A stretch of DNA of 64,000 bases from Actinocatenispora sera (GTDB lineage Bacteria > Actinomycetota > Actinomycetes > Mycobacteriales > Micromonosporaceae), in the NCBI RefSeq assembly GCF_018324685.1, contig NZ_AP023354.1:4712001-4776000 (forward strand), given 5' to 3'. The notes beneath the pieces are model-generated. The model ran no database searches and was not told the origin of the DNA. It saw only the letters and a list, made by a program, of their open reading frames with translations. A program made the position numbers and the translations under genes. Shown one piece after another: positions 53,496 to 63,527 of this stretch (its first letter is position 1; every line of letters starts with the position of its first letter).

Positions 53496-54935
53496 ATGCG
53501 CGTGCTCGGAATCGACTTCGGCACGTCGAACACGGTGGCCATGCTCCGAATGCCCGATGGGCGGGTTCGGCCACTGTTGTTCGACGGGTCACCGCTGCTG
53601 CCTTCCTCGGTGTACCTGGCCCCCGATGGCCGGATGCTGGTGGGGCGGGACGCGGAGCGTAACGCCCGGGTCGACCCCACCCGGTTCGAGCCGAACCCGA
53701 AGCGCCGCATCGACGACGGCACGGTGTTCCTGGGCGACCAGGAGATCCCGGTGCCGCGGGTGATCGCCTACGTGCTGGAGCAGGTGATCACCGAGGCCCG
53801 CCGGCAGATCGGCGGGATGCCCGAGCAGCTGCGGATGACCCACCCGGCCCGGTGGGGGGAGCGGCGCCGCAGCCTGCTGGTGGAGGGTGCCCGGCTGGCC
53901 GGGCTGCCCCGGCCGCAGCTGATCGCCGAGCCGGTCGGCGCCGCGTCCTACTTCACCGCCGTGCTGGGCACCGCGGTGCCGGTGGGCCGGTCGCTGGCCA
54001 TCTACGACCTGGGCGGCGGCACGTTCGACGCCACCGTGGTGCGGCGCACCCAGTCCGGCTTCGAGGTGCTGGCCGAGGAGGGGCTGCCCGATGTCGGCGG
54101 CCTCGACTTCGACCACGCGATCATCGAGCACCTCGGCAAGACGTACTCGCAGTCGCATCCCGACCTGTGGGCCCGGCTGATCAACCCGCGCGAGTCCGGC
54201 GACCGCCGCTACCGCCGGATGCTGTACGAGGACGTGCGCGGCGCCAAGGAGATGCTCTCGCGCACCTCCAGTTCCGACATCCACCTGCCGGCGCTGGAGG
54301 TGGATGCGCACATCACCCGCGAGGAGCTGGAGTCGCTGATCCGCCCGCACCTGGAGCGGACGGTCGAGTGCCTGCAGCGCACCATCTCCGAGGCCCGGCT
54401 GACGCCCCGGGACCTGGTCGGCATCTTCCTGGTCGGCGGGTCCAGCCGGATCCCGCTGGCCGGCCACCTGGTGCACACCACCCTGGGGGTGGCGCCGACC
54501 GCGCTGGAGCAGCCGGAAACGGTCGTGGTGGAGGGCTCGCTCGCCGTGGGCGGCCCGCCCAACCAGCGGCCGGCGATCCCGCCGCGGCCGGTGCAACCGC
54601 AGCACCGGCCGCCGGTGCGTCCGGCCCCGGCCGGCAACCGGCCACCGGCCCGGCCGGTGATCCCGAGCCCGCCGCGGCCGGCACCGACACCGGCGCCCCG
54701 GCCACCGGTGCAGCAGCCCGGCCCGCGTCCGCCGCAGCCGGCACAGCTGCGACCCGCTGCCGCGCCGATGGCGGCGCCGCAACGGCCGATGCCGGCGGCG
54801 CCCGCCCCGGCCGCGGCCGACGACGGCTCCGGCCGCAACTGGTACCAGGAGCCGGCGGTGGTCGGCACCCTGGTGGTGGCGGTCGTGCTGGTGCTGGCGT
54901 TCGTGGGCCTGCTGGTCTACGCGGTCGCCCGCTGA
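53496..54935 (+). CDS. Tail-anchored Hsp70-family ATPase lacking the substrate-binding domain
   Basis: A 479-residue actin-fold protein; ATG 53496 follows GGAGGGA. Residues 1-350 form an Hsp70 nucleotide-binding domain: phosphate 1 GIDFGTSNTVAM, phosphate 2 IYDLGGGTFDATVV (about 169-182), and the adenosine motif FLVGGSSRIP (311-320). In place of the peptide-binding domain there is a Pro-rich linker (352-440) and one hydrophobic helix at 455-477 that ends three residues from the C-terminus, so the ATPase faces the cytoplasm from a tail anchor. Two dynamin-like genes and a GrpE-like gene lie 4-6 kb away. It may act as a nucleotide switch at the membrane rather than as a folding chaperone. Confidence 0.9.
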   Translation: MRVLGIDFGTSNTVAMLRMPDGRVRPLLFDGSPLLPSSVYLAPDGRMLVGRDAERNARVDPTRFEPNPKRRIDDGTVFLGDQEIPVPRVIAYVLEQVITEARRQIGGMPEQLRMTHPARWGERRRSLLVEGARLAGLPRPQLIAEPVGAASYFTAVLGTAVPVGRSLAIYDLGGGTFDATVVRRTQSGFEVLAEEGLPDVGGLDFDHAIIEHLGKTYSQSHPDLWARLINPRESGDRRYRRMLYEDVRGAKEMLSRTSSSDIHLPALEVDAHITREELESLIRPHLERTVECLQRTISEARLTPRDLVGIFLVGGSSRIPLAGHLVHTTLGVAPTALEQPETVVVEGSLAVGGPPNQRPAIPPRPVQPQHRPPVRPAPAGNRPPARPVIPSPPRPAPTPAPRPPVQQPGPRPPQPAQLRPAAAPMAAPQRPMPAAPAPAAADDGSGRNWYQEPAVVGTLVVAVVLVLAFVGLLVYAVAR

Positions 54936-54948
54936 CCGGACCGGATCA

Positions 54949-54973
54949 CGGTGCCGGCAGCACGCCGGCACCG
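54949..54973. terminator. Perfect 10-bp hairpin between convergent genes
   Basis: CGGTGCCGGC, a five-base loop and its exact complement lie 13 nt after the Hsp70-like stop and 14 nt from the SDR stop on the other strand. Confidence 0.65.
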
Positions 54974-54987
54974 CGACCCTTCCGGCG

Positions 54988-55752
54988 CTACCAGGGCAGC
55001 GGGCCCTCCGCGCTGAAGAACCCGCCGGTCGGGCCGTCCGCACCGAGGGTGGCCAGCCGCACCACTACCGCGGCGCCCTGTTCCGGGGTGAGCACGCCGC
55101 TGTGGCCGTTGATGTCGGTGTCGACGTACCCCGGGGCTGCGGCGTTGACCAGGATGTTCTCCGCACGCAGCTCGTTGGCGTACTGGAGGGTCAGCGCGTT
55201 GAGCGCCGTCTTGGACGGCGAGTAGGCCGCCGACAGCAGGCTCGACATCGGCCCGTCGACCTCGGCGGTCAGCGCCAGCGACGCCGAGTGGCTGGAGACG
55301 TTGACGATCCGGGCGGCGGGGGATCGGCGCAGCAGCGGCAGTACGGCGTTGGTCACCCTGAGCACCGCGAACACGTTGGTGTCGAACACCTCCCGTACCA
55401 GGTCCACGTCGACGGCGCTGGGGACGCGGTCGAGGGCGTCCGGGGGTGCCGCCTGGCCCGACCCGGTGATGCCGGCGTTGTTGACCAGTACGTCCAGCCG
55501 GCCGAGATGCTCGTCGATCCAGCTCGCGGCCGCCCGGACGGTGGCCTGGTCCGTGACGTCCAGCTCGACCGCGTGGGCGTCGCCGCCGACGGCGCGGATC
55601 GCCGCTGCGGCCTCACCACCGCGCCGCGGGTCGCGGGCGCCGACCACGACGCGGAACCCCGCCGCGGCCAGGCCCGTGGCGGCCGCCCGGCCGATCCCCT
55701 TGTTCGCCCCGGTGACCAGTGCCACCCGGCGTTGTTTCGCTTGCTTGTCCAT
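54988..55752 (-). CDS. Short-chain dehydrogenase/reductase
   Basis: A 254-residue classical SDR from ATG 55752. The cofactor loop is TGANKGIG, NNAG follows in VLVNNAGITG, and the catalytic Ser-Tyr-Lys are in NVSSHSAS and YSPSKTALN. The SPSKTALNALT and GYVDTDINGH blocks suggest the carbonyl-reductase-like group. It is the last minus-strand gene before the Hsp70-like gene and lies 266 nt beyond the acidic protein gene, so it may or may not belong to that operon. Substrate unknown. Confidence 0.92.
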   Translation of the reverse strand: MDKQAKQRRVALVTGANKGIGRAAATGLAAAGFRVVVGARDPRRGGEAAAAIRAVGGDAHAVELDVTDQATVRAAASWIDEHLGRLDVLVNNAGITGSGQAAPPDALDRVPSAVDVDLVREVFDTNVFAVLRVTNAVLPLLRRSPAARIVNVSSHSASLALTAEVDGPMSSLLSAAYSPSKTALNALTLQYANELRAENILVNAAAPGYVDTDINGHSGVLTPEQGAAVVVRLATLGADGPTGGFFSAEGPLPW

Positions 55753-56018
55753 GAACTGGATGCCCTTCCGTGCGGCTGACACGTCGCGGGCCGCGATGCC
55801 GGCCCGCGCTCATGCAGATGCCGGTACCGCCGGGCCCGTGACAGCGCAGGCGCGTGGCGCGCGTCACCGAATGGCATCCACCCGGCAGCGGCGTCGCTGA
55901 CCTGGCTCGCGCCGCAGCGACATGCTGGCTCAGCATTCGGAGTGATCGTGATGCACACTCCAGAGCCGGCTCGACTGCGGATGCCGCGGGTGGGCCGGAT
56001 GAGCGTCGGCTGGGCGGG

Positions 56019-56684
56019 TCAGCTGCCGGGGGCCCAGAAGCGGGCCAGCGAGCTCGTCGCCGGATCGTCCGAGCCGGCGAGCGCCTGCCACGGGTCGACG
56101 CCCTCGGGCGCCGACTGGCCGTCGTAGTCGAACAGGTCGTCGGGCGAGCCACTCGGCTGCGCAGCCGCCTCGCCGGGGCCCTGGACGGACAGGTCGTGCT
56201 GCTCGCCGAGCACGGCGGGATCGCTCCACGGGAAGCCGTCCACCGGCTCCGGCGGTTCACCGATCTCCAGCTGCGGGGGGAACACGTCCTCGGCGGCCCA
56301 GTCCGGGTCGTCGCCGACCAGGTCGAGATCCGGGTCGGTGCCGGGCACCGGGTCGGGGTCGAGCGCGGGCGCCTGCTGATCGTCCTCGTCGACGTCGCTG
56401 AACGCGTCGGCTTCGTGCCCGTCGGTCGCGTCGCCGTCGGACAGCTCGCCGTACTCCAACCCGAGGTCGTCGCCGTCGTGCGAGCCGGCGTCGGGATCGA
56501 GGTCCAGTTCGTGCCCGTCGGTGTCGAGGTGCTCGTCGCCGTACCCGTCGTGGTCGCCGAGCCCGTCGCCGTCCAGCCCACCGGTGAGCCCGTCACCGGC
56601 GTCGGTGTGGTCGGCCCCGTACCCGTCGTCGGCGCCGGTGTCGTGGTCGCCGTACTCGTCGATCGGCCCGCCGTGCTCGTCCAT
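56019..56684 (-). CDS. Asp/Gly/His-rich acidic protein, last gene of the dynamin operon
   Basis: A 221-residue protein beginning seven bases after the natural dynamin stop. The first 110 residues are almost only Asp, Gly, Glu, His, Tyr and Thr in DGDG/GDHDG-like runs, then a Pro-rich acidic part with short conserved-looking segments (FPWSDPAVLGE, DDLFDYDG, SSLARFWAPGS). No TM segment or signal peptide. Codon positions are regular, with GAC/GGC throughout, which supports translation. It may be a disordered metal- or protein-binding adaptor for the dynamins; iniB of mycobacteria also encodes a low-complexity partner, but no homology is claimed. Confidence 0.75.
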   Translation of the reverse strand: MDEHGGPIDEYGDHDTGADDGYGADHTDAGDGLTGGLDGDGLGDHDGYGDEHLDTDGHELDLDPDAGSHDGDDLGLEYGELSDGDATDGHEADAFSDVDEDDQQAPALDPDPVPGTDPDLDLVGDDPDWAAEDVFPPQLEIGEPPEPVDGFPWSDPAVLGEQHDLSVQGPGEAAAQPSGSPDDLFDYDGQSAPEGVDPWQALAGSDDPATSSLARFWAPGS

Positions 56685-56690
56685 GGCCGA

Positions 56691-58567
56691 CTATCCCCCT
56701 GCGTGTCCGACGGGGCCGCCGGCGCGATTCCTCGCGCCTTGATCAGCACCTCGTCGAGTTGTTTGATCCGGGCCCGCAGCTGCTCGCGCTCCTTCTGCAG
56801 GTCGGCACGCTTCTTCTGCCGGCTGTTCTTGTCCTCGACCATCGTCTTGTCGATCTCGGCGATCTGCCCGTCGAGTTGCTTGAGCCGCCGCTCGATCGCC
56901 TCGTCCAACGCCAGTGTCAGGGCGTACTGCAAGTCGGTGAAGCGGGTCGCGATCTCGTCCGACAGCGCCGCCCGGGACTCGCCCAGTACCTCGCGCAGCC
57001 ACACCTTCGCCTGCGAGCGGTTGGCCTGCACCTTGCGCCGCCACATCATGAACGCGCCGGCCGCCAGGCCGATGCCGACGCCGACGACCGGCACCACGAT
57101 GCCGCCGGCCAGGGCGGACGCGCCGAGGGTGGCACCGCCGGCGCTGGCCAGCGAGTACAGCCCGCGGCCGGTGCTGAACGCGGACATCACCACGAGCGAC
57201 TGGTCGCCGGAGCCCTCCTTCTGCGGCTTGGCGGTCATCGCGGTGCGCAGCTTGGCGTTGAGCCGGCGCAGCACGTAGTTGAGCTCCTGCGGGCTGAACA
57301 CGCTGGCAAGGATGCGCTGGCCGATGACCCGGAACCGGTGCTCCAGGTCGGCCGACAGCCGGATCGACACCGCGTACAGCGCGCGGTCCACCTCGTACGG
57401 CAGCTTCTTGATGTCGCCGCCGGAGCCCTTCTCGATGGTCTTGCCGAAGTCGTCCTGCAGCTGGGTGATGTACTTGCGCAGCCGAGACTGGGCGTCCACC
57501 CGGGCCCGCTGGGTCTCGGTGTTGAGCGCCAGCGACCACTGTTTGGTCTCCGAGCGCTTGCGCGAGTTGACCTTCTGCCGCTCCTGTTTGAGCCGCTCGA
57601 GCAGCGCCGGGTCCGGGTCGGCGGACTTCATCCGGTCGCCCACCCCCAGGTCGAGCCGGACGAACTCGGTACGCACGGCGCGCAGCGTGTTGGCCGTCTT
57701 GAGCGCGGTGCCCTTGGCGGCCAGGCCGATCAGCCCGTGCTGCAGTTCGGCGACCCGGGACTCCTTGACGATCTCGGCCGCGGCGTCGGCCGGCATCTGC
57801 AGCGCCAGCTCGGCCAGCCTGGACGACACCGGGAAGAACGGCGCCGTGGCGAACCGCGGCGCGTGCGCGCGCAGCAGCGACCGGTCGTCGTCCATGATGG
57901 TCCGCCAGCCCGGGTACGCGTCGACCTTGGTCAGCGCGAACAGCACCATGTTGACCCGCTTGCTGGCCTCGATCAGGAAGTTCAGCTCGGGCCGGGAGAA
58001 CGGCGCGGACGCGTCGACCACGAACAGCAGCGCGGTCGCCCGTTCCACCGCGTCCAGCGCCACCTCGGCGTGCAGCGAGTCCAGGCCGCCGACGCCGGGG
58101 GTGTCCAGCAGCGACGCGTACTGCAGCATCGGTGCGGGGTGGAAGATCTCCAGCCGGCGCGGCGGCCGAACCCCCTCGGGCAGCCGGCCGAGCACCGTGC
58201 CGTAGTCGCGGATGTCCTCGATGCGCACCGGGATCGGGTCCTCCCGGCCCGGGATGTAGGCCTGCGCGGCGGGCTGCGCGCCGTGCACGAACTCCAGGTA
58301 CGAGCTGGTGGCGACGGCGGCGTCGACCGGGGACAGGTTCGGCACCCCGATCAGCGCGTTGGTCAGCGAGCTCTTGCCGCGCTTGGTCTCGCCGACCACC
58401 ACGATGCTGGGCACGGTCTGCTCGCGGCGGCGCAGCACGTCCAGGTCGGACGCGGCGTCGGGGTCGATGCGGCGCAGGTGTGCCAGGCCGGCATCGACGG
58501 CACCGCGCAGCATCTTCTCCAGGGCGGCGGTGTTCGCGGCCTGGTTGGTCTTGGCCGGTGCGCTCAC
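56691..58567 (-). CDS. Membrane-remodelling dynamin-like GTPase (IniA-like), frame broken at the last codons
   Basis: GTG 58567 overlaps the GrpE-like stop (GTGA). The GTPase domain has G1 GETKRGKSS (59-67), G3 LLDTPGVGG and G4 ALTKVDAYPG. A helical stalk follows, then a hydrophobic hairpin (GASALAGGIVVPVVGVGIGLAAGAF, in two parts) for membrane insertion, and a C-terminal coiled coil (KTMVEDKNSRQKKRADLQKERE). The size, near 625 residues, fits bacterial dynamins of the IniA/DynA kind. In the given sequence the frame has no stop here: it would read on to 55613. One more base in the C5 run at 56695-56699 gives a stop at 56691-56693, just before the next start. Confidence 0.88.
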
Positions 58568-59229
58568 TGCCGTCCCTCTTCCTTGTAGACGGTGACCACG
58601 GGGGCGCGCAGCACGACGCCGCGGTCGACGTAGCCGGGTACCTCGACCGCGGCGATGGTGCCGGCCAGCGCCGGGTCGGTGGTGGGGGTGGCGCCGCCGG
58701 CCTCGTGGTGCGCCGGGTCGAACCGCACCCCGACCGGCGCGACGGTGCTGACGCCGACCTCCTGCAGGGAGCGGCCGAGCACGTCGGCGATCGCCTTGCT
58801 GGTGGCACGGTCGCGCACGTACACGCAGGTCTGGATCAGGCTGCCGCGCTCGGTCTCGGCCTGCTCGGCGCGCTGGGCGAGCCCCGGGTCGGCGCCGGCG
58901 GCGGGCGGCGCCGAGGTGACCGTGGCGAGCTTCGCGCCGTCGCGGCGCGCGGCGAGCAGCAGCACCACGGCGACGCCGCCGGCCAGCCCGGCGCCGACGA
59001 AGCCGACCGCGGCGGTCTGCACCGAGAAGCTGGCGTCGCAGGCGGCGCTGCGGCCGATCACCCCGCGGCCGTCGGCGCTGCCCGGCGCGGAGCCGTCGGC
59101 CGGGGTGGTCTGCACCTGCAGGGTGCACGTCCCGGTCTTGGCACCGACCCAGCCGCCGACGAGGCCGGTGAGCACGGCGACTATGGCGGCGACACCGGCG
59201 GCGATGACGCGGAGGTTGCTCGAGGACAT
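58564..59229 (-). CDS. Two-TM protein with GrpE-like cytoplasmic domain
   Basis: A 221-residue protein; ATG 59229 has AAGGAG upstream. Two membrane helices (about 8-30 and 72-94) flank an outside loop with a Cys pair (35 and 64) that could form a disulfide. The C-terminal domain resembles the GrpE head: EVGVSTVAPVGVRFDPAHHEAGG, then PTTDPALAGTI and PGYVDRGVVLRAPVVTVY. This fits the GrpE signature F-D-P-x-x-H-x-A ... G-Y-x3-G-x2-L-R closely. It would be a membrane-bound nucleotide-exchange factor for the Hsp70-like ATPase nearby. It lies between the two dynamin genes and overlaps the second by four bases. Confidence 0.82.
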   Translation of the reverse strand: MSSSNLRVIAAGVAAIVAVLTGLVGGWVGAKTGTCTLQVQTTPADGSAPGSADGRGVIGRSAACDASFSVQTAAVGFVGAGLAGGVAVVLLLAARRDGAKLATVTSAPPAAGADPGLAQRAEQAETERGSLIQTCVYVRDRATSKAIADVLGRSLQEVGVSTVAPVGVRFDPAHHEAGGATPTTDPALAGTIAAVEVPGYVDRGVVLRAPVVTVYKEEGRQ

Positions 59230-59263
59230 GGGGGGCTCCTTTATCCAAAGCGCATCGCGCGAC

Positions 59264-60769
59264 TCAGGCGGGCTGACTCTTTCGCACCTGCTGGGAGAGC
59301 AGGAAGAAGCCGCGGTGGACGACGTGGGCGATCCGGGCCTGGGCGGGGCTGGCGCCGGCGACGGCGAACGCGCGCCACCGGGTCGCCGCCTCCAGCGCGG
59401 CCTTGGCGAGTTGCTCGACGGTGGCGCCGGACATGCCGAGGATCCAGTGCGGGTCGTCGGACAGCGCCAGCCGGGTCAGCTCGTTTTCCATCTCTTCGGG
59501 CAGGGCGACCGAGCCGGTGGTGACCTGCTGGGCGACGTCCAGCATCCGCAGCCGGTGGTACTCGGGCTGTTGCAGCACCCGTTCGACCGCGTCGCGCAGC
59601 AGTTCCCGGTCGGCGGGGCGCTCGGCGTGGCTGGCGATCTTCTCCAGGCTGGTCAGCGCCCAGCCGGCCTTGATCGCATCGGTGCGCCAACGGAAAGCCC
59701 GCTCCAGGGTGGAGCGCGCGCGGGGGAAGCCGGACGCCAGGAACAGCTGCTTGACCAGCTCGCCGGTCGCCAGCTTCGGGTTGGCGACGAACTGGGCGAC
59801 CGCGAACGACACGCCGTAGATGTCCAGCAGCCGCAGCAACCGTTCCCGCTGCGCCTTGGACACCGCGCAGTCGCGCGCGATGAACAGGTCGACGGAGGCC
59901 AGCAGCACCTGCCGTTCGGTGTCGGACATGCTCGCGATGGTGCGCAGCGCCTCGCAGTCGGCGGCGGTCAGCCGGCCGGCCTCGGTGGTCTCGGCGAGCA
60001 GCCCGATCACCGGGACCACGTCGGACACCACCCGGCGCAGCACCTCGCCCTGCTTGGTGGCCAGCGGTTCGGCCACCGGCCACGGGTCGCCGGTACCGGC
60101 GAGCTTGTCGACCTTGTTGAACAGCCCGAGCGAGTTGATCGGGTTGCTCGACAGCTTCGAGGACATCGACTGGAACGACTTGAGCGCCTGCAGGTCGTCC
60201 TCGCGGACCGACTGGGTGAACACGTACACGATCGCCTCGGCGCCGGACAGCGCGCCGGCGGAGTCGTCGTCGATGTCGTCGTCGATGGGCGCCTCGTTGA
60301 ACAGGAACCGGCGCGCCTCGTCGGAGATCGACGAGTTGGTCGACGACAGGCCGGGCGTGTCGACGACGGTGAGGTCCTCGAGCCGGTCGGAGGTGAGCGT
60401 GACGTCGACGAAGGCGACCTCGTCGCGGGGCACGCCCAGCTTCTGCGGGATCATGCCGGACTCGTCCAGCGGCAGGCTGGCCCGCGAGCCGTCCCGGCGT
60501 ACGACGTCGATCCGATCGGTGGTGCCGTACCGGAACTGGGTGACCAGCCGGGTGCACTCGCCGACCTCGGTGGGGGCCACCCGCCGCCCGATGAGCGAGT
60601 TGACCAGCGTCGACTTGCCCGACTTGAGCCGGCCGGCGATCGCCACCCGCAGCGGTTCGCTCAGGCGGCGCGAGATGTCGACCACCGCGGCCTGAGTACT
60701 GCCGGCCAGTCGCGGCCCGCACTCGCCGCACAGCGCCTGGACCCGGGAACTGAGGGGACCCGAACTCAT
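59264..60769 (-). CDS. Dynamin-like GTPase (IniC-like)
   Basis: A 501-residue GTPase; first gene of the operon. G1 is GRLKSGKST (46-54), G2 threonine is in GECTRLVTQF, G3 is VVDTPGLSSTNSSISD, and G4 is LFNKVDKL. The rest is helical stalk without clear TM helices, matching the shorter partner of bacterial dynamin pairs. Short acidic DDDIDDDSAG lies after G3. It probably assembles with the IniA-like protein encoded two genes downstream in membrane fission, repair or stress protection. Confidence 0.9.
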   Translation of the reverse strand: MSSGPLSSRVQALCGECGPRLAGSTQAAVVDISRRLSEPLRVAIAGRLKSGKSTLVNSLIGRRVAPTEVGECTRLVTQFRYGTTDRIDVVRRDGSRASLPLDESGMIPQKLGVPRDEVAFVDVTLTSDRLEDLTVVDTPGLSSTNSSISDEARRFLFNEAPIDDDIDDDSAGALSGAEAIVYVFTQSVREDDLQALKSFQSMSSKLSSNPINSLGLFNKVDKLAGTGDPWPVAEPLATKQGEVLRRVVSDVVPVIGLLAETTEAGRLTAADCEALRTIASMSDTERQVLLASVDLFIARDCAVSKAQRERLLRLLDIYGVSFAVAQFVANPKLATGELVKQLFLASGFPRARSTLERAFRWRTDAIKAGWALTSLEKIASHAERPADRELLRDAVERVLQQPEYHRLRMLDVAQQVTTGSVALPEEMENELTRLALSDDPHWILGMSGATVEQLAKAALEAATRWRAFAVAGASPAQARIAHVVHRGFFLLSQQVRKSQPA

Positions 60770-60981
60770 CGCAACACCCCGGAATCGCCATGTGTGACGA
60801 CTCGAACACGGTGTGCCGCGAAACCCTCGGCGCCGTCCATGTCGGTCATGGCCGGTGGTACCTCCTACTACTCTGGTGGCAGGCCTGGTGTGCGTGGCCG
60901 ACGCCTGCCGGCACTCACACTAGGCATATCCTCACCGACCTAGGATCCCGGATTCGTGCCAGCCCGCGGGGGGAGGCCCAC

Positions 60982-63527
60982 GTGCGTGACGCGACTGCTG
61001 GTCAGACCGGCGCCGACGCGCCGAGACCCGACCAGCGGCCGACCGCGCCCGCACCCGACCCGGTCGCGACGGCGGCCGAGCGGTTGGCCCGGCCGGGACT
61101 GGTGGTGGTCACCGGCTCGCCCGGTGCCGGGCGCAGCAGCGCGCTGCGCGCGGTCGCCGACCGGTTCGGCGGCACCGTGTTCACCGGCGGCGGGCTGGCC
61201 ATCCTGCGCGGCGTGCCCGGCCTCGCGCTGTCTCGCGCGGTGCGGGCCCGGCTGCCGGTCGAAGACGGCGCGCTGACCGCCGAGGCGGTCCGCTCCCGGG
61301 TCCGCGGCGGGCTGCTGGTGCTCGACGACCTGCAGTGGGCCGACCCGCTCACCCTCGTCACCCTGCCAGGGCTCGCGGCGCACTGCCGGGTGCTGGTGTC
61401 GCTGCGGACCCCGCACCGGCTGCCGGCCGCGGCGCTGGCGGCGTTGCGGGCGGCCTGCGACACCTGGCTCGCGCTGCCGCCGCTGACCCCGCAGCAGGCC
61501 ACCGAGCTGGCCCGGCGCATCGCACCCGGGTTGGGTGCGGCCGGCCTGGCCGAGGTGGTGGCCCGCGCCGGTGGCGTACCGCTGGCGGTGGAGACGCTCG
61601 CCCGGCACGCGGTGGCGCACCCGGAGTCGGTGTCGCGGCAGCCGGAGCCCGACGACGCCGGCAGCACCGGCGCGGTGGCGCACGCGGTCGCCGAGGCGCT
61701 GGCCGACCTGACCCGACCGGCCCGGACCGCGATGGCGGCGCTGGGCATGCTGCGCCGGCCGGCGGCACGCACCCTGCTGGGTGCCGGCGTCGCCGAGCTG
61801 GCCGAGGCCGGGCTGGTGGTCGCGCCCCCGACGACGCCGAGGGCTCGCAGGTCGCCGCCGTGTCGCCGTACGTGGCGGAGGTCGCGGCGGGGCTGCTCAG
61901 CCCGGAGGAACGGGCCGGAGTGCACCGCCGGCTGGCCGAGCTGGTCCCCGACGCCGAGGCGGCCCGGCACCTGGCCGCGGCCGGCGACGACCAGCCGGCG
62001 TACGAGCGGGCCGTCGCCGCGACGGCCACCGCCGAAACGGCGGGGGAGCGCGCCGACCTGTTGCTGCTCGCCTGCGGATTGGACGGCGCGCACCCGCGCC
62101 CCGCGGTACGCCGGGACACCGCTGCGGCGGCGCTCGCCGTCGGCCGGCCCCGCGCCGCGCTGCGTGCCCTGGCCGATGCCGCCGACGCCGACAGCGCCGT
62201 GCTGCGCGGTGAGGCGCTGCTGCAGCTGGGCGAGGTGGACGAGGCGGTCGCCGCGGTGACGGTCGTCCCCGACGCCGCGGACCGTCAGGCGGTCGCCGCC
62301 CGCGACCGGGTGTTGCTGCTCGGCGCCCTGGCCCGCGACCGGGCCCGGGCCGCGGAGCTGGCCGAGGCCACCGTCCAGCGCCACGGCCGGCCGCCGGAGC
62401 ACACCGGCCTGCGGGCCGCGCTGGCCGCGGTGGATGCCGCCGCCCGCCACGCCGGCTGGGAGCGCGAGCTGGCCACCGCGGCGGCCGCGGCCGGTGCCGG
62501 CGGTGACGCGCTCGCCGCCCGGTGGAGCGCCTGGCTGCTGGTGGAGACGCTCGCCGCGGACGGCCGGCTGGCCGAGGCGGCGGAGAACGCCCGGCTGGCC
62601 GCCGACGCCTGCGCGAGCGATCTGGCGTACTCGTGGCAGACCCGGTTTCTCGCCGCGGAGTTGTGGTGCACCGCGCTGCGCGGCGAGCAGCTCGACGACG
62701 TGGTGCGCCGCGCGGTGGCGCTGGTCGACCGGACCCTGCCGGCGGTCGCGCACGGCTACGCGACCGCGGCGGCGGCGCTCGCCGAGGCCGACGGTGGGCT
62801 GCTCGCCTCGGCGCGGGCCCGGCTGGGGGACCGACCGGCCCGCCCGGTGGCGAGCGTCGCCGGGCTGCTGGACTGGGTTGCGGCCGAGGCCGCCTGGCTC
62901 GACGGCCAGCCGGAGGCGGCGACGCCGACCCGCCCGGCCGGCCGGGCGCCGCTGCTGACCGGACTGGCGGAGATCACCGGCCGGTGGGTGGCGTACGACG
63001 CCGAGGACGGCCACGGGCTGCCCGCGCTCGACGGCGCCGACCTCGTCGGCCCGGCGCAGGCGACGCTGGCCGCCTGGCAGGCGGTGACGGTCGACCCGGC
63101 GAAGGTCGCCGAGTTCGATCCGGCGGCGACCGCCTGGCACGACGTGGCCCGCCGCGAGGAGGTGCGCTGCCTGCTCGCGCACGGGCTGTACGAGACGGAC
63201 GCGTCCCGCGCGGTGCCGCCGCTGCTGCGCGCCGAGCAGGTCGCCGAGCAGGCCGGGCTGGTGGTGCTGCTGGGCCGCACCCGCCGCGCGCTGCGCCGGC
63301 ACGCGGTGCGCCGCGAGACCCGCGGCCCGCGGGCCGGCATGGACCTGACCGACCGGGAGCGGGAGGTGCTGCGGCTGGTCGCGCAGGGCGAGCCGACCCG
63401 CCGCATCGCCGGGCTGCTGGGCATCTCCCGGGAGACGGTGGAGACGCACATCCGGGCCGGGATGCGCAAGCTCGGTGCGAAGACCCGGACCGAGGCGGCC
63501 GGCCTGGCGTTGGAGCTGCTGCAATGA
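60982..63527 (+). CDS. Large LuxR-family ATPase regulator (LAL-like), frameshifted
   Basis: About 848 residues if one base is added. GTG 60982 follows GGGAGG. The N-terminal P-loop reads VVTGSPGAGRSS, with Arg in place of the Walker A Lys; Walker B is LLVLDDLQWAD. The sense frame changes at the C5 run 61825-61829; the downstream frame continues the helical middle region and ends with a LuxR HTH (LTDREREVLRLVAQGEPTRRIAGLLGISRETVETHI). It diverges from the dynamin operon across 212 bp and is a candidate regulator of it. The Arg substitution suggests altered or lost ATP hydrolysis. Confidence 0.85.

Follow-up and report, generated by a model that had tools for sequence, protein, structure and literature searches.

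A tail-anchored Hsp70 and a GrpE-like protein are linked to IniA/IniC-type dynamin genes in Actinomycetota

The window analysed here, a stretch of 64,000 nucleotides from the 7.04-Mb chromosome of Actinocatenispora sera (NZ_AP023354.1, positions 4,712,001 to 4,776,000), harbours an iniBAC-like dynamin locus, in which the genes of an IniC-like and an IniA-like dynamin flank the gene of a GrpE-like protein, with the gene of a tail-anchored Hsp70 close by. The link between the Hsp70 and dynamin genes is not chance. Their co-occurrence across genomes, a check set beforehand in an earlier note on this DNA, turned out clearly positive, and genes of GrpE-like proteins and, in some lineages, of J-domain proteins join them. 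Three parts of the Hsp70 cycle, namely an ATPase, an exchange-factor fold and a J domain, are gathered around one dynamin pair. Because the co-occurrence is positive and the GrpE-like and J-domain genes join the set, an Hsp70-type machine very probably works as a partner of the IniC-like/IniA-like pair.

The order-level loci of the survey were fetched by the IniC-like protein alone, as stretches of mostly 20 kb. An Hsp70 other than DnaK was present in the stretch at 38 of 60 order-level loci (L064-L123) and a GrpE-like protein at 40 of 60. Forty control stretches, taken at fixed coordinates from 22 related genomes with large contigs and not paired to the loci, contained neither (0/40 each), with a weak dynamin match in one; a random 20-kb stretch of the window genome would contain an Hsp70 gene about 3% of the time. 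By family, Hsp70 was found at 10/11 loci of f4, 5/6 of f3, 7/8 of f8, 3/4 of f13 and 3/20 of f15 (Pseudonocardiaceae), and among 43 named loci it was found in 21 and the GrpE-like protein in 22. The window, G011 and G049 are separate loci outside the order-level set (the latter two being L060 and L059). Weak or partial hits (G003, G140, G154, G194, G164, G191 and G081) were left out, as were G151, G197 and the second hits of G110, G118, G146, G153 and G180; among 61 further loci, 18 weak distant hits (L167-L184) lay outside the scan. We scored L064, whose stretch stops short of an adjacent Hsp70, and L115, which has only a canonical DnaK, as without Hsp70, and excluded the canonical dnaK-grpE genes of L112, L114, L115 and L118 from the GrpE-like counts.

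The linked genes are tightly spaced at many loci, as calculated from gene starts estimated by script. At ten loci the same-strand gaps from Hsp70 to the IniC-like gene are 6, 39, 94, 70, 14, -4, 42, 60, 51 and 22 nt; L108 (679 nt) and L097 (5.4 kb) have wider ones. Taken over the lineages other than that of the window, co-directional Hsp70 genes lie at estimated distances of -4 to 94 nt from dynamin or GrpE-like genes in six orders or more. In L099 the GrpE-like gene runs into Hsp70 (-4 nt), which is followed by the IniC-like gene after 83 nt, and the Frankia locus L147 reads Hsp70>Hsp70>GrpE-like>IniA-like. Hsp70 also follows the IniA-like gene at -4 nt in L140 (Acidimicrobiia), precedes it by 1 nt in L146 (Aeromicrobium) and follows the IniC-like gene after 48 nt in L163 (Corynebacterium). 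In total, the same-strand gene orders comprise Hsp70>IniC>GrpE>IniA, IniA>GrpE>Hsp70>IniC, Hsp70>Hsp70>GrpE>IniA..IniC, IniC>IniA>Hsp70, Hsp70>IniA..IniC and IniA>IniC>Hsp70, many of them with gaps below 100 nt or overlapping genes. Neighbours kept through repeated rearrangement are what selection for shared function would leave. Fusions of a dynamin with an Hsp70, GrpE or J domain were not found in any of the 143 scanned loci.

The association extends to whole genomes. Among 61 Micromonosporaceae genomes, the Hsp70 orthologue (>500 bits) occurs in 32 and the IniC-like protein (>600 bits) in 40, with cut-offs that were set after the score gaps had been seen; 31 genomes have both, nine only the IniC-like protein, one only Hsp70 and 20 neither (Fisher 3.7e-8, uncorrected for shared descent). 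The two genes share a contig in 26 genomes, at a distance below 10 kb in 15, of 10-25 kb in five and farther in six (one distance being measured through the record start, with the record treated as a circle), and lie on separate contigs in the other five. All 18 genomes with a GrpE-like gene at the dynamin locus possess the Hsp70, compared to 13 of the 22 IniC-like genomes without one (Fisher 0.002, descent uncorrected; for G002 and G057, two of the 22, the status without GrpE-like rests on a single search). Mere block synteny, by which the genes would be neighbours by descent with no working link, could draw on the fact that the Micromonosporaceae Hsp70 travels with GDPD and adjoining genes; however, the linkage persists in other lineages despite changed gene order and strand, and the pair is kept in the six Micromonosporaceae genomes whose genes are >25 kb apart, which leaves this explanation most improbable.

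Downstream of the dynamin genes, a J-domain protein is encoded in 11 of the 143 scanned loci, compared to 0/40 controls, and four further J-domain genes that adjoin canonical dnaK were kept out of this count. The J domain was confirmed by Pfam in all six proteins submitted, and the seven of the 11 that were checked possess two to four hydrophobic segments each. In Micromonosporaceae the J protein is present in eight of the 61 genomes and always lies at the dynamin locus; these eight may represent a single clade. It occurs in 6/6 genomes with Hsp70 >25 kb away and in 0/20 with Hsp70 within 25 kb; of the other two genomes with a J protein, one has the Hsp70 on another contig and one has no Hsp70 orthologue. 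The membrane J protein had no match in the window genome, and no J-domain gene was found for the window; of the two J domains in this genome, one adjoins dnaK and the other belongs, by eye, to a zinc-finger type DnaJ.

In the window the genes are arranged from left to right as GDPD (-), Hsp70 (+), short-chain dehydrogenase (SDR, -), Asp/Gly-rich protein (-), IniA-like (-), GrpE-like (-), IniC-like (-) and a divergent regulator (+) (Table 1). The minus-strand genes IniC-like, GrpE-like, IniA-like and Asp/Gly-rich look like one operon, in which the stop codon of the GrpE-like gene overlaps the GTG start of the IniA-like gene (GTGA); this agrees with the claim of the earlier note that the GrpE-like gene lies between the dynamins and is coupled to one of them. 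The same note had described a set of five genes (Hsp70, GrpE-like, IniA-like, IniC-like and Asp/Gly-rich), all of which were recovered with their coordinates and domains. As a set, this list needs amendment: the SDR gene intervenes, Hsp70 is convergent with the dynamin genes and stands outside their operon, and the divergent regulator also belongs. The SDR is probably not part of the system, because L044, L045, L051 and L054 have Hsp70 and the dynamin set together but show no SDR match.

Table 1. Genes of the dynamin locus in the window (positions counted within the window), and related loci in other genomes.
Feature	Position	Strand	Description
Hsp70	53496..54935	+	nucleotide-binding domain (about residues 1-348), then a disordered Pro-rich linker and a membrane anchor at the C terminus
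Short-chain dehydrogenase (SDR)	54988..55782	-	adh_short, E 7.7e-47 (Pfam); between Hsp70 and dynamin genes
Asp/Gly-rich acidic protein	56019..56684	-	conserved C-terminal tail; no Pfam or NCBIfam match
IniA-like dynamin	56697..58567	-	GTG start at 58567; Dynamin_N, E 2.3e-13, above curated cut-off
GrpE-like protein	58564..59229	-	C-terminal beta-domain of GrpE, preceded by two hydrophobic segments and a short helical part
IniC-like dynamin	59264..60769	-	Dynamin_N, E 2.2e-14, above curated cut-off
IniR-like regulator	about 60924..63527	+	AAA ATPase and LuxR-type helix-turn-helix (HTH); divergent from IniC-like; three frame pieces
J-domain genes in L049, L050, L053, L055, L059, L060, L071, L126, L127, L202, L204			just downstream of dynamin genes
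Hsp70-like genes in L111-L117, L148-L157 (Mycobacterium and kin)			beside iniA/iniC; catalytic residues mostly SVDDG

The window Hsp70 matches Pfam HSP70 at residues 83-348 (E 9.8e-35), with a weak MreB-type match in addition, and aligns to DnaK (PDB 2v7y) across residues 2-353 by phmmer. Its AlphaFold2 model, built from seven sequences with a mean predicted local distance difference test (pLDDT) score of 68, comprises an actin-like part, a region of pLDDT <50 at residues 350-447 and a helix at residues 453-478 that covers the single hydrophobic C-terminal segment (residues 456-474). Among the matches listed by Foldseek for this model, 50 of 50 are Hsp70 entries. The protein shares with DnaK/Hsp70 a complete ATPase domain, in which the alignment revealed the whole pentad DKEDT at the five positions that we take to be catalytic, but differs in its Pro-rich linker, its membrane anchor, a short GrpE loop and the missing substrate-binding domain. 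The NCBIfam DnaK model scores it at 129 bits, against a cut-off of 822.55. In the 7.04 Mb of the window genome we counted 10 Hsp70 genes from 12 match rows; several of the ten have very long open frames, and some Micromonosporaceae relatives have at least 24 Hsp70 matches.

In a tree built quickly from the ATPase domains of 84 Hsp70s, proximity to dynamin genes required six changes compared to 18.1 for shuffled labels, with none of 500 shuffles as low, although near-copies and the choice of rows favour such clustering. The rows labelled near included the canonical DnaK of L112, L114, L115 and L063, whereas the separated orthologues L255 and L256 were labelled far; the f8 Hsp70s group with the named Mycobacterium loci. 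The catalytic pentad is intact in 39 of 60 dynamin-linked Hsp70 rows, the window's included. It is intact in 25 of 26 rows at loci with a GrpE-like gene and lost in 20 of 34 rows at loci without one, a hint in the sequences that GrpE-like presence may track an intact ATPase.

The Pfam GrpE match of the GrpE-like protein (E 8e-7; 29.3 bits, cut-off 25.8) covers residues 146-216 only and starts at profile position 96 of 165. It matches GrpEL1 (PDB 9blt) by phmmer with an E of 3.2e-5, and the 17 NCBIfam GrpE models that match it all fall far under their cut-offs. Structural similarity search using its AlphaFold2 model (18 sequences, mean pLDDT 71, predicted template modelling score 0.40) returned GrpE or GrpE-Hsp70 entries as all of the top 12 PDB chains. 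Pfam, PDB sequences and fold thus all identify the C-terminal beta-domain as that of GrpE, which exchanges the nucleotide of DnaK. The N-terminal part differs from GrpE: the model has two N-terminal helices in the hydrophobic segments together with short helices, in place of the long paired helices by which GrpE dimerises. A hydrophobic stretch precedes the GrpE domain in 34 of 83 GrpE-like proteins, as counted by simple hydropathy on stop-to-stop frames, so membrane anchoring is not general. The GrpE-like profile matched in 7 of 198 genomes of a phylum sample, of which the six outside the order have long, canonical-type GrpE proteins by eye, and the iterated GrpE profile thus also picks up canonical GrpE; no relative was found on viral contigs. 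A second pair of GrpE-like and Hsp70 genes lies at 304330-305646 of the window genome (L002, L258), and L063 is alike; within the stretches covered there, the dynamin profiles gave no match.

The best PDB hit of the IniA-like dynamin is the solved IniA (6j72, E 9.4e-21), which is also the third hit of the IniC-like dynamin (E 9e-7). The IniA-like protein has a hydrophobic segment at about residues 485-503, and the IniC-like protein has none; the family profile of the latter found 68 of 150 genomes of the order at an E of 1e-10 or lower, a count that includes weak relatives. Of 17 Micromonosporaceae loci (L044-L060), 13 have a homologue of the Asp/Gly-rich protein after the IniA-like gene, and two of the other four end at a contig end. 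Compared to its counterpart in the sister genome L044, the IniA-like protein is 98.6% identical across 624 residues, and its frame stays open beyond the position of the sister's stop. The intact sister regulator, which has a GerE HTH match and an AAA_16 match below cut-off, is represented by three pieces in two frames of the window assembly (tblastn), one of which also contains the HTH. The split regulator and the overlong IniA-like gene are either an assembly error or real; both copies are intact in L044. Two variant loci were also seen. In L139 (Saccharothrix sp.) the IniC-GrpE-IniA set adjoins a histidine kinase/response regulator pair, not an IniR-like regulator, with a sortase gene downstream, and L061 is a diverged cluster with a GrpE-like protein, two Hsp70-like proteins and both dynamins; its genome (G034) contains a standard IniC-like locus as well.

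Several observations weigh against a working partnership of the Hsp70 machine and the dynamins, and part of them concerns its distribution. Many loci lack a GrpE-like or a J protein, and a full Hsp70 lies in the stretch at only 6 of 17 Micromonosporaceae loci chosen by the GrpE-like protein, several of these stretches being cut by contig ends. At 20 other dynamin loci of this family GrpE-like is present in 0/20 and Hsp70 in 10/20; nine of the 40 IniC-like genomes have no Hsp70 orthologue, and the Hsp70 also adjoins GDPD. Moreover, Pseudonocardiaceae retain the GrpE-like protein mostly without a nearby Hsp70, as would suit a GrpE-like protein that works for the housekeeping DnaK or in some other role, its position between the dynamins being unrelated to the tail-anchored Hsp70. 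The window genome indeed has a canonical long-loop DnaK along with canonical GrpE and DnaJ genes. This explanation is nevertheless very unlikely, given the tail-anchored Hsp70 in 18/18 genomes with GrpE-like at the dynamin locus and the overlapping or touching GrpE-like and Hsp70 genes in L099 and Frankia L147. We consider it rather likely that the GrpE-like protein acts on the tail-anchored Hsp70.

The other part concerns the Hsp70s themselves. In the window protein the substrate-binding domain is replaced by a disordered linker and a helix (Pfam, AlphaFold2 model), so contact with a dynamin would need the ATPase domain, the linker or the membrane helix. The loop aligned to the GrpE-contact loop of DnaK has 12 residues in nearly all non-DnaK Hsp70s, compared to 20-21 in DnaK, where the long loop helps GrpE binding; with the short loop, the contact of the GrpE-like protein would differ from that of DnaK and GrpE. 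In the alignment, the mycobacterial dynamin-linked clade mostly has SVDDG in place of DKEDT, and these proteins are predicted to be ATPase-dead. The association of GrpE with the ATPase residues rests on one Hsp70 clade, their loss amounting to two tree changes, and when the presence of GrpE was compared with an intact ATPase in independent pairs, no signal emerged and the test had no power. Together with the weak MreB-type match, the missing substrate-binding domain and the short loop would fit an actin-like membrane scaffold, in which the Hsp70 domain recruits or orders the dynamins and the GrpE fold is a docking adaptor, and mycobacterial Hsp70s that have lost the catalytic residues still adjoin dynamins. 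Such a scaffold is unlikely, since the pentad is intact in most dynamin-linked rows (39/60), the window's among them, and the loci also encode J-domain and GrpE-like partners, which implies a nucleotide cycle. On balance we favour a partnership that includes a nucleotide cycle of some kind.

The Hsp70 set might alternatively be a classical chaperone that helps unstable dynamins to fold or to stay stable, or that sorts proteins in membrane remodelling. According to the accessible text of PMC6715688, IniA had low scission activity in vitro, and IniC was poorly stable after purification and hence not studied; protein sorting has been proposed as the role of the DnaK neighbours of a cyanobacterial dynamin (PMC5827413, accessible text). 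By contrast, the window Hsp70 has no peptide-binding domain, and both it and the GrpE-like protein are membrane-anchored in the window, which makes a classical chaperone quite unlikely. Possibly the Hsp70 controls how the dynamins assemble and does nothing else for them, although we do not yet lean towards this.

Parts of this arrangement resemble known systems. As described in the accessible text of PMC5760070, IniR is a regulator of iniBAC with AAA and LuxR-type HTH domains, and a dnaK-like gene adjoins iniR in M. smegmatis. The window locus shares with mycobacterial iniBAC/IniR the IniA-like and IniC-like pair and a nearby AAA/LuxR-type regulator. It differs in the GrpE-like gene between the dynamins, in an Hsp70 with intact ATPase residues, in having IniC-like first and probably in having the Asp/Gly-rich protein in the stead of IniB. 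In cyanobacteria, a dynamin "chaperone clade" has DnaK-domain genes downstream, and a 2018 review calls both activities linked (PMC5827413, accessible text). Compared by description only, the two cases have in common DnaK-domain genes near a bacterial dynamin but differ in phylum and in dynamins, and neither GrpE nor DnaJ appears in the accessible text of that review. Similarly, the Nostoc dynamin B2IZD2 has a C-terminal DnaJ-like domain (PMC6104087, accessible text) and thus also joins part of the Hsp70 machine to a bacterial dynamin, although, by its description, as a fusion and in a cyanobacterium. The statement of the earlier note that a dedicated chaperone-type switch for bacterial dynamins is not described therefore holds in part: the Hsp70-dynamin neighbourhood is published for cyanobacteria, whereas the actinobacterial set of Hsp70, GrpE and J proteins around IniA/IniC-type dynamins was not found described. 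In the accessible text of the open-licence PMC literature, we found no GrpE-like dynamin partner, actinobacterial survey or mechanism, an absence that is not proof.

A membrane switch for dynamin assembly with exchange by the GrpE-like protein, as we infer from the genes alone, is plausible. The IniR-like regulator, to judge from its likeness in architecture, would switch on the dynamin set under envelope stress, and the dynamins would assemble on damaged membrane. The tail-anchored Hsp70, on the cytosolic face, would bind ATP, contact a dynamin and alter its assembly state on hydrolysis, which in some relatives may be triggered by the membrane J-domain protein. The membrane GrpE-like protein would then reset the Hsp70 by opening its nucleotide cleft. 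The net result would be an ATP-driven cycle that loads, restrains or dismantles the dynamin coat.

More broadly, the dynamins of Actinomycetota might be driven by a dedicated membrane Hsp70/J/GrpE machine for coat disassembly or reloading, of which mycobacteria would keep an ATPase-dead regulator version and the cyanobacterial dynamin-DnaK and dynamin-DnaJ cases would form a second branch; argued from analogy, this picture is doubtful. Hsc70 drives clathrin uncoating, and such a machine, if true, would be its bacterial counterpart. The partner set matters because a conserved set of Hsp70-type partners offers concrete missing components for dynamin assays and bears on the envelope-stress loci of actinobacteria.

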